Positions 20,630 to 22,466 of a DNA stretch of 64,000 nucleotides are shown in pieces. Below the pieces are notes generated by a model. It was given only the letters and a program-made list of their open reading frames with translations, had not been told where the DNA came from and made no database searches. The number at the start of each line of letters is the position of its first letter. The stretch's first letter is position 1. Source of the stretch: Nocardiopsis terrae (GTDB lineage: Bacteria > Actinomycetota > Actinomycetes > Streptosporangiales > Streptosporangiaceae); assembly GCF_014651695.1 (NCBI RefSeq), contig NZ_BMXJ01000007.1, positions 140,509-204,508 of the forward strand, given 5' to 3'. Both the position numbers and the translations under genes were made by a program.

Positions 20630-20671
20630 CGTTCACGAGGGGCGGCCCGACCGGTTCGGGCCGCCCCTCGC
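20630..20671. repeat. 42-bp terminator repeat, copy 1 (3' of ychF)
   Basis: Identical at all 42 positions to 22425-22466 and in the same orientation. It begins CGTTCA and then forms a perfect 15-bp stem (20635-20649 with 20655-20669) over a CCGGT loop. It lies 7 nt after the ychF stop and would act as its terminator. The flanking bases differ between copies. Confidence 0.93.
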
Positions 20672-20698
20672 GCGCCGTAACGATCGCGCCCGGAGACC

Positions 20699-21244
20699 TC
20701 AGCGGTCCGCGTGAACGGCACGTGTCGCGGGGTCCCGCCGGGCGGTCCACGGTGTGGAGGCGCTCGGTGCGAGCGTCGAGGTGACGTGTGCTTTGTGCAG
20801 TCCGAGCGCCTTCTGGTAATGCCGGAGCTTGGTCAGGATTGGTGGAAGCACCGGTTTGATCTGCCTCTGCCGCCGTCCCCCGTCCTTCACGTCGATGTGT
20901 AGCGCGAGATGGATCCGTGTGCTCGATGCGCACCTGATCGCAAACTCCTTGGCCCTGCTGTCCGCGTTCGTTCGGGCGAGGGAGTAGAGCAACGCCATCG
21001 TTCCGGCCGCTTTCAGAGCCACCGTTCTGGCGAGGTCCGGCGGCTGCTCCGCATTTGCGTAGGTGTAGTCCTTCACCTCGATGATCCACAGTTCATCGCT
21101 GTTGAGGGCTATGACGTCGCAGCCTTTGAGGCTCAGCGCTCCTGCCGCCTTGCGAAACTGCGGCCACTCGTCGAACATGTCGACCTGCCAGCCGTCCGGG
21201 AACGTGAAGTAGGTCCCGTCCACGCATATTTCACGGGTGGGCAT
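20699..21244 (-). CDS. PD-(D/E)XK nuclease-like protein, partner of the adjacent ATPase
   Basis: 181-aa protein without a close match that I recognise. Residues 40-60 read KGCDVIALNSDELWIIEVKD, which fits the PD-(D/E)XK core: D43 after a strand, then a second strand ending in E56-V-K58. Helical residues 67-100 (DLARTVALKAAGTMALLYSL) follow as expected for the alpha-helix after the core. The C terminus is basic. ATG 21244 lies 6 nt after the stop of the ATPase, with that stop region (GGTGA) as the only Shine-Dalgarno. A nuclease paired with an OLD/SMC-like ATPase is a common plan in phage-defence systems; that role is inference. Confidence 0.65.
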   Translation of the reverse strand: MPTREICVDGTYFTFPDGWQVDMFDEWPQFRKAAGALSLKGCDVIALNSDELWIIEVKDYTYANAEQPPDLARTVALKAAGTMALLYSLARTNADSRAKEFAIRCASSTRIHLALHIDVKDGGRRQRQIKPVLPPILTKLRHYQKALGLHKAHVTSTLAPSASTPWTARRDPATRAVHADR

Positions 21245-21250
21245 GTCGGG

Positions 21251-22300
21251 TCACCAGGCGAGGTAGCGATCGGACTGCTCGGCCTCTGCTTCGAGGGCGG
21301 CGATGAAATCGAGTTCGTCGAGATCGTCACTCGCCTGTGCCGTCACTTCGGCGGCGGCCACGTTCTCGTTGTCGCTTCGGCGCCGTTCCAGTCCGATGTA
21401 GCGGGGGGCGACGTCGCCGGAGGACATCTGTAGTTCGCGTAGGAGGAACATGCTGTGGGTCGCGACGAAGATCTGGGAGCCCTGCGAGGCCAAATGGATC
21501 AGAGCGTGCGCCACCGCCCTCTGCGACCTGGGGTTGAGGTTGGCCTCGGGCTCGTCCCAGAACAGGTATCCCCCCTCCAGGAGAACCCCGGAGGCGATGA
21601 GCCTGACGATCATGGCGAGTTTCCGATGCCCTTCCGCCAGGAGGGGGGCCTCCAGATTCCCGATACCGGGTTGCTTGAGGAAGAACCGCCCGTCCCTCTC
21701 GAAGACGGTTCCGCCCTGGAGGAGATCGGAGAACGGTTTGAGGATCGTGTTGGCGCGTTTTCCCTTGGGTCCGAGGAGGGCCGGTCGCTGCAGGAGTTCC
21801 GCGGTGTCCCTCCACGTCTCTTCGAACGGAGTCTCCCTGGTGTTGTACAGGGCGACGAATGTGGCGGCGAGCGAGAGCAGCTCGTGAGAGGGAAGGAAGA
21901 CCGGTTCGTCTTCCAACGGCCGATGCGGCACCTGGTTCATGACCACCTCGCGCGTCGCCTTCGAGGAGAAGGAAAAGCTGAGCGGTTCACGGATCCCCGA
22001 GTACTTCATGCTGACGTTCGTTCTTCCGGTCCCCTGGACACGGCGGCAGAGTCGCCCCAGGCTCTCGGGGCGGAAGGTGCCGACCAGCTTCGACGCGATC
22101 GCTGAACTGAGTTCCTTCTTCGTCAGTACTTCGGCTTCGTGCAGTGACTTCGTGCCGGTATAAAGAAGTTTGAGCAGTTGCGACTTCCCCGTCGCGTTGT
22201 CACCGACGATCACGTTCAATCCGGGAGCGAGATCCACACTGATATCGCGGAAGGGGCCGAACGCGAATGCGTCGAGTCGGGTGATCGGGTGCTTCGCCAT
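21251..22300 (-). CDS. AAA ATPase of the ABC/SMC-like (AAA_15/AAA_21, OLD-type) class
   Basis: 349 aa. N-terminal strand-P-loop ITRLDAFAFGPFRDISVDLA then GDNATGKS (33-40, K39). The middle insertion is helical. An LAEGHRKLAMIVRLI signature-like helix, Walker B YLFWDEPEANLNP (D249, E250) and switch segment IFVATHSMFLLREL follow, as in RecF/OLD-type ATPases. There is no TOPRIM domain at the C terminus, unlike true OLD. It is the first gene of the pair. ATG 22300 has a TAGACT hexamer 6 nt upstream and no Shine-Dalgarno. ATPase assignment is firm; defence function is inferred from pairing and from the flanking repeats. Confidence 0.82.
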   Translation of the reverse strand: MAKHPITRLDAFAFGPFRDISVDLAPGLNVIVGDNATGKSQLLKLLYTGTKSLHEAEVLTKKELSSAIASKLVGTFRPESLGRLCRRVQGTGRTNVSMKYSGIREPLSFSFSSKATREVVMNQVPHRPLEDEPVFLPSHELLSLAATFVALYNTRETPFEETWRDTAELLQRPALLGPKGKRANTILKPFSDLLQGGTVFERDGRFFLKQPGIGNLEAPLLAEGHRKLAMIVRLIASGVLLEGGYLFWDEPEANLNPRSQRAVAHALIHLASQGSQIFVATHSMFLLRELQMSSGDVAPRYIGLERRRSDNENVAAAEVTAQASDDLDELDFIAALEAEAEQSDRYLAW

Positions 22301-22306
22301 GAGGTC

Positions 22307-22312
22307 AGTCTA
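22307..22312 (-). promoter_or_regulatory. -10-like hexamer of the ATPase-nuclease operon
   Basis: TAGACT on the minus strand, 6 nt from ATG 22300, again implying a leaderless message. Confidence 0.5.
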
Positions 22313-22424
22313 ATGGGATGACCTGAAATGTTGCCGGGGCGAGCCAGGGGGGACGAGCCCGGTGAAGCCCTGCGGTCACCGCACCAGGGTCTGGAATTGA
22401 GAGGGGGTGACGTATGCCCCAAAC

Positions 22425-22466
22425 CGTTCACGAGGGGCGGCCCGACCGGTTCGGGCCGCCCCTCGC
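22425..22466. repeat. 42-bp terminator repeat, copy 2 (3' of membrane protein gene)
   Basis: Exact copy of 20630-20671, same orientation, with the 15-bp perfect stem at 22430-22444 and 22450-22464. It lies 16 nt after the stop of the minus-strand gene at 22483, for which it would be the terminator. Confidence 0.93.

Follow-up and report, generated by a model that had tools for sequence, protein, structure and literature searches.

A HEC-02 gene pair between identical hairpin repeats beside ychF in Nocardiopsis terrae suggests insertion with long target duplication

Results

A two-gene unit between two copies of a hairpin sequence

We analysed a 64,000-nucleotide stretch of the draft genome of Nocardiopsis terrae (the window; plain positions refer to it, while C, L and G designate contigs, loci and genomes of the comparison). 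Between ychF and a convergent membrane-protein gene, two genes are enclosed by two copies of the same sequence:

19538-20623, plus strand: ychF, a resident core gene for a GTPase, with the proposed landing site on its 3' side (Pfam YchF-GTPase_C, E=5e-39)
20630-20671, plus strand: left copy of the 42-bp duplication, with a 15-bp hairpin
20699-21244, minus strand: HEC-02 nuclease-like gene, 181 aa (PADLOC PDLC04145, E=5.1e-19)
21251-22300, minus strand: HEC-02 ATPase gene, 349 aa, AAA_21, OLD/ABC-like (PADLOC PDLC04146, E=1.3e-103)
22410-22424, plus strand: perhaps a degenerate remnant of the end of ychF (ACGTATGCCCCAAAC compared with ACGTCTGACCCGAA), weak when taken alone
22425-22466, plus strand: right copy of the 42-bp duplication
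22483-23253, minus strand: convergent membrane-protein gene (open reading frame), native neighbour

The two copies are identical at 42/42 positions, lie in direct orientation and are 1795 bp apart. Each copy contains perfect 15-bp arms around a 5-nt loop, the 35-bp palindrome of the left copy lying at 20636-20670. The left copy begins at the 7th nucleotide past the ychF stop codon (20621-20623), and the right copy terminates 16 nt short of the membrane gene's stop on the minus strand (22483), so that the identical repeats, hairpin and stop-codon offsets reported in the preliminary description of this DNA are all borne out. The folded RNA of the hairpin has a predicted energy of −36.3 kcal/mol (z = −6.3), better than 200/200 shuffled sequences, and a search with up to 3 mismatches found the 42-bp repeat twice in the window as compared to no match in 100 shuffles. 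A gapped alignment lengthens the similarity to about 57 bp, into the last ychF bases (ACGTCTGACCCGAA and ACGTATGCCCCAAAC); this extension is weak by itself, with an anchored test giving p of about 0.02 under one scoring scheme and 0.26 under another.

We refer to the hairpin repeat as a terminator on account of its position 3' of two convergent genes, since no T-run follows the stem and a consensus terminator scan did not report the hairpin. Terminators without a U-run are usual in actinobacteria. The preliminary description had held open that the repeat might belong to an ordinary dispersed terminator family; a search of the 6.0-Mb assembly for the hairpin core, with 28 specified bases and up to 3 mismatches allowed, found the two window positions and no others, and a dispersed terminator or REP family is therefore ruled out. 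A different sequence, roughly 45 nt long and located at 22350-22394 upstream of the unit, recurs with 87-89% identity just past gene ends at C2:250992 and C8:96583; it was rejected as an end motif, as neither place carries a related unit.

The enclosed genes resemble a predicted defence system

The ATPase and partner genes adjoin, run in the same direction and both match the PADLOC models of HEC-02 (Hma-embedded candidate 02), with the PDLC04146 match spanning residues 13-348 of the 349-aa ATPase. The window pair stands alone between core genes, and belongs to an actinobacterial branch that is divergent, its ATPase having about 40-45% identity to most proteobacterial members. The ATPase carries a Pfam AAA_21 domain (E=6e-18) with the Walker A motif GDNATGKS. 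In the 181-aa partner, residues D43, E56 and K58 are invariant in an alignment of 25 homologues, in a PD-(D/E)XK pattern. An AlphaFold2 model of this protein (pLDDT 89.7) gave archaeal Hjc resolvases and HincII as its top Foldseek matches, all weak (E of at least 0.012, TM about 0.2-0.3). The partner is thus a probable PD-(D/E)XK nuclease.

The pair shares with Septu (PtuAB) and PARIS (AriAB) a two-gene organization in which an OLD/ABC-like ATPase is accompanied by a separate nuclease or effector, but the partner is an HNH protein in Septu (PtuB) and a TOPRIM protein in PARIS (AriB), whereas here it is PD-(D/E)XK-like; HEC-02 scored far above both systems in PADLOC. By analogy with Septu and PARIS, the HEC-02 pair would most likely be an ATP-gated nuclease system against phages, of the abortive-infection type, in which the ATPase probably senses the phage and thereby triggers nuclease attack or abortive infection. 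Several HEC members were reported to be active in experiments (PMC12988326), and no activity test of HEC-02 itself was found in the literature searched. Open reading frames and Pfam matches showed only these two genes in the unit, with no recombinase or integrase gene. In this it differs from a tyrosine-integrase island, which would carry an integrase gene.

The pair has a history different from that of its host

A full-length homologue of the ATPase was found in 4/39 other Nocardiopsis genomes, elsewhere in the genome and with 57-59% identity, and its closest relatives are in Myceligenerans (73%) and Trueperella. In the ATPase tree the window protein groups with these two genera with support of 99/98, apart from the other Nocardiopsis ATPases, which cluster with a member of the Propionibacteriaceae. 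The comparison of the pair's phylogeny with the host tree, proposed in the preliminary description, thus gives a conflict for the ATPase, and the HEC-02 pair is best described as horizontally acquired, because its ATPase groups with Myceligenerans and Trueperella and not with congeners. The GC content of the unit is 63%, as compared to 71% for the window. HEC-02 was detected in 2/396 genomes of a phylum-wide sample, one of them being the genome of the window itself.

The 3' side of ychF is variable among congeners

A full-length or near full-length match to ychF was present in 39/40 congeneric genomes searched. The unit was absent from the ychF site in the other Nocardiopsis genomes examined, a count that leaves aside G020 (no full-length ychF match) and G025 (contig ending just past ychF); it is accordingly not the case that all close relatives carry the unit with the same flanks. 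None of the congeners has ychF adjacent to the membrane gene, homologues of which lie 4-13 kb downstream of ychF in G001, G031, G037 and G013. The hairpins 3' of ychF vary between species, and are unalike even where YchF is 95% identical. Between ychF and the next conserved gene, a tcpC-like gene (at 24380 in the window), congeners have an interval of anywhere between about 0.6 and more than 8 kb, with different cargo.

In six congeners (G013, G010, G002, G037, G015 and G039; loci L065, L066, L072, L078, L093 and L098), the final 22-165 bp of ychF are found again 0.8-8 kb downstream, with cargo of various kinds in between. Most of these tail copies have GTGGAGTTCCG in common, and in all but G002 they stop at the stop codon. 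The copies in G015 and G039 are 151-163 bp long and 83-88% identical, and a toxin-antitoxin pair of FitAB type (RHH-PIN) lies within the duplication of G010. In G036 the C-terminal remnant of a tyrosine integrase (L091:1089-1660; HDLRHFYASGL...GHSSASVTLNTY) follows ychF directly, in opposite orientation. The region 3' of ychF is thus a hotspot, which site-specific integration uses at least in part in these relatives, because the tail copies end at the stop codon and G036 retains an integrase fragment. The block duplicated in the window is the terminator, unlike the ychF end duplicated in relatives.

Several further features of this site were observed. G039 and G015 each carry two extra ychF-tail copies, resembling stacked insertions. 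In G002 (L072:1000-2000) a serine-hydrolase-like fragment is inserted within the GTGGAGTTCCG of ychF, and the normal YchF C-terminus is lost, the protein now ending in ...EFRSGLTSGGKK. In the window, a Uma2-family nuclease-like gene (23409-24068) adjoins the membrane gene, and Uma2-family homologues also occupy the ychF spot in G021, G010 and G007.

Five duplication-bounded operons in one third of the genome

We compared 2.0 Mb of the 6.0-Mb draft, about one third (C7 1-400k, C2 1-800k, C1 1-400k, C8 80-320k and C6 1-160k), with itself for isolated close direct repeats, excluding paralogue clusters and calling genes as GC3-filtered open reading frames. One scan returned 15 such repeats and a looser one 17. 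Most fall within coding sequence (P-loop motifs, hsdS, ABC genes); the repeat at C7:212329 is a tandem paralogue, and at C1:171345 the first scan alone picked up a Uma2-family gene whose 5' end is duplicated. Two copies of a dispersed palindrome (GTGATCTTGCTACCAG...CTGGTAGCAAGATCAC), at C2:274939-275001 and 276147-276209, lie on either side of a gene that starts like AbiEi; this palindrome recurs near other gene ends, also at L005:1546-1612, and looks like a REP or MITE. Five duplications of a gene end or terminator, 32-72 bp long, were found, and inside each of them lies a defence or toxin-antitoxin operon of two genes:

Window unit: HEC-02; 42-bp terminator duplication, 100% identical
C2:772345 / 773038: HicB and a HicA-like partner; 66 bp, 100% identical, with a secreted-protein gene and a pckA-like gene on the sides
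C2:798384 / 799265: VapBC; 54-72 bp, taking in a thiolase 3' end
C1:381851 / 382933: TacA and GNAT; 64 bp, 100% identical, SDR gene 3' end
C7:39098 / 40062: RHH and a weak PIN match; 32 bp, 97% identical, SMR gene 3' end

The HicA-like protein at C2:772345 has no Pfam match itself, and the pckA-like gene beside it has matches in 40/40 genomes. Four of the units sit between convergent genes, and for the RHH-PIN pair one flank was resolved. The top 25 Pfam families, those listed for 94 random small open reading frames of the same sequence, did not include the toxin and antitoxin families of these units. None of the five units contains a recombinase gene or room for one, and the five duplications have no common core. 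The duplicated sequence is specific to its locus in every case, and in 3/5 it includes the coding 3' end of the neighbour. A hairpin is present in three duplications; the SDR and SMR cases consist of coding 3' ends only.

The preliminary description had proposed terminator hairpins as the boundaries of a mobile module. Its proposed search for further cassettes bounded by terminator duplicates did lead to a set of duplication-bounded operons, but with a hairpin in only 3/5, and hairpins are not obligatory boundaries, since no two of the five duplicated sequences are the same and three of them include a coding 3' end. Homologues of the HicA-like and VapC-like proteins in congeners gave a clear hairpin duplication only in G017, where HicAB lies between 48-bp copies of a hairpin and methyltransferase gene end; a 23-bp repeat at VapC in G029 is within the control range.

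Flank duplications at other HEC-02 loci

The partner gene follows the ATPase gene in most other HEC-02 loci. Among the best 80 of at least 449 such loci, 8 had 500-bp flanks that align to each other with a score of at least 50, compared to 2/804 pseudo-units; two of these eight matches (L124 and L152) lie in repeat-rich loci, and among the others are a dnaG end in Corynebacterium, an ABC-gene end in Acinetobacter and a hairpin in G010. Exact flank repeats of at least 20 bp occurred in 0/2835 pseudo-units, as against lengths of 42 bp in the window, 50 bp in L188, 31 bp in L124 and 24 bp in L114. In Corynebacterium sp. MSK008 (L114:5400-8000), HEC-02 lies behind dnaG and a second dnaG end of 265 bp, with about 80% identity, is found downstream; in Acinetobacter, HEC-02 lies between 84-bp copies of an ABC-gene end. 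The flank copies of L114, L184 and L188 have diverged (80-93%). HEC-02 of G010 lies between duplicated hairpins that have no other close copy in that genome. The dnaG and ABC-gene copies are coding ends and, together with the two coding-end duplications of the N. terrae genome, they speak against terminator hairpins as the boundary signal.

Two observations stand beside these comparisons. In G010 (L262:6178, 13954 and 15852) a third, related hairpin lies 7.8 kb past the two flanking HEC-02, which hints at stacked insertions, and in Bifidobacterium criceti (L124:5400-8000) HEC-02 is embedded on both sides in GCGTCGTGCGATGCCGCAG-type repeat arrays.

Discussion

The insertion of a small defence-like module without a recombinase, as the preliminary description had suggested, is supported by the absence of the unit at the congener sites examined, the conflict shown by the ATPase tree and the unique duplication at its flanks. 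A target duplication, as opposed to the end of an element, is the best reading of the repeat, because each case duplicates another sequence and that sequence is part of the resident locus. No empty site with one repeat copy and no unit was seen among the congeners examined, and the analysis of the window site is based on one draft genome of the species; that the unit was inserted, and the flank not duplicated afterwards, is accordingly an inference.

Our favoured explanation, which we consider reasonably probable, is that insertion with long target duplication brought the HEC-02 pair to the 3' side of ychF. What is directly observed is the duplication, its uniqueness, the recurrence of such duplications in the genome and the bias of their cargo. 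In the proposed event, DNA of a self-preserving two-gene operon would have been joined into the chromosome, leaving about 42-57 bp of resident sequence on either side. The copies would arise at insertion itself, for example by gap-filling of a long-stagger break or by template switching, and a repair-type joining of this kind appears the most plausible route. Gene ends and terminators may be favoured as sites since a duplication there keeps both neighbours intact, and self-preserving cargo may be over-represented since it withstands loss by recombination between the repeats.

There is precedent for such insertion. According to PMC3874152, which cites Nobusato 2000 and Furuta 2010, some restriction-modification systems duplicate a long and variable stretch of the target, of the order of 100 bp, when they insert, and PMC3031569 and PMC1643837 describe the same for restriction-modification units. 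The shared features are a self-preserving unit with no linked mobile element and, at both ends, tens to about 100 bp of resident sequence duplicated in direct orientation. The cases here differ in their cargo (HEC-02 and small toxin-antitoxin pairs), in their high-GC actinobacterial host, and in their sites, which are gene 3' ends and shared hairpins; among the genomes compared here there was no strain pair with and without the unit. No report of long target duplication for HEC-02 or for small toxin-antitoxin pairs was found in the literature searched. The phenomenon that the preliminary description took to be new is thus not wholly so, since this manner of insertion was already described for restriction-modification systems (PMC3874152).

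Other explanations were weighed against this one. The repeats might be the attL and attR sites of a site-specific integrase, with the integrase and the rest of the element lost or acting in trans. Tyrosine integrase islands at gene 3' ends likewise duplicate the gene end at their border, and such a spot exists at ychF of the congeners, where six genomes duplicate the end of the gene around other cargo and mostly share GTGGAGTTCCG, where G036 has the C-terminal part of an integrase beside ychF, and where the interval to tcpC varies from 0.6 to more than 8 kb. But the window block is the terminator and not the ychF end that the relatives use, none of the five units has an integrase or other recombinase, or room for one, and there is no common att core; since the five duplications share none, five specificities and five clean integrase losses would be needed, and we regard this explanation as unlikely. 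We give slightly less credence to import anchored in homology, by which a related donor carrying the unit at the same gene end would recombine through the core gene and join illegitimately at the far side, so that the recipient's own gene end stays in place. The diverged gene ends around HEC-02 in Corynebacterium (265 bp of dnaG) and Acinetobacter (84 bp of the ABC gene) are what such import would leave, as are the copies of 83-88% identity around other cargo in G015 and G039, and the diverged copies of L114, L184 and L188 fit it as well. The copies at the window, HicAB and TacA-GNAT units are 100% identical, however; both window copies would have to come from the same species, because ychF hairpins are already unalike at 95% YchF identity, and the first insertion would be left unexplained.

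A process specific to hairpins (cruciform cleavage, or an HUH or integron-like recombinase) that uses terminator stems as boundaries would account for the strong hairpins in three of the five duplications, at HEC-02 of G010 and at HicAB of G017, and a cruciform cut at its base would put the palindrome on both sides. It seems very improbable in view of the two same-genome cases and the dnaG and ABC cases, which are coding ends with no hairpin, and of duplications that reach up to 29 bp past the stem. The left edge GTTCACG, moreover, differs by eye from the integron core GTTRRRY, and in this mismatch to the attC core the unit also departs from an integron gene cassette. Most strongly disfavoured is chance, or a terminator that was simply duplicated in tandem, the genes between its copies being unrelated: duplications of paralogues together with a terminator do occur in this genome (C7:212329 and C1:84254), but the window unit has no paralogue beside it, an exact repeat of at least 20 bp was seen in 0/2835 pseudo-units, and in 5/5 gene-end cases the enclosed genes form a defence or toxin-antitoxin operon of two genes.

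Insertion with long target duplication would, if it explains these loci, be widened from restriction-modification systems to HEC-02 and toxin-antitoxin pairs. The five cases of this genome suggest that self-preserving gene pairs repeatedly take a route into chromosomes that needs no recombinase. Tentatively, and with more doubt than confidence, one could go further and propose that two-gene toxin-antitoxin and defence operons of actinobacteria are recombinase-free cassettes, moved by a single process, either dedicated or encoded by the host, in which 30-70 bp of a gene 3' end or terminator are duplicated; they would then form a general, unnamed class of minimal mobile units, and this process might be their main way of settling between core genes. 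It has long been asked how small toxin-antitoxin and defence modules that lack a recombinase enter chromosomes. Wherever a gene end or terminator is duplicated in isolation in the scanned third of this one genome, the duplication marks a toxin-antitoxin or defence module, and such duplications may therefore serve as a simple, alignment-free signature for recently inserted units, including unknown ones, while their junctions provide defined points at which the enzymology can be tested.
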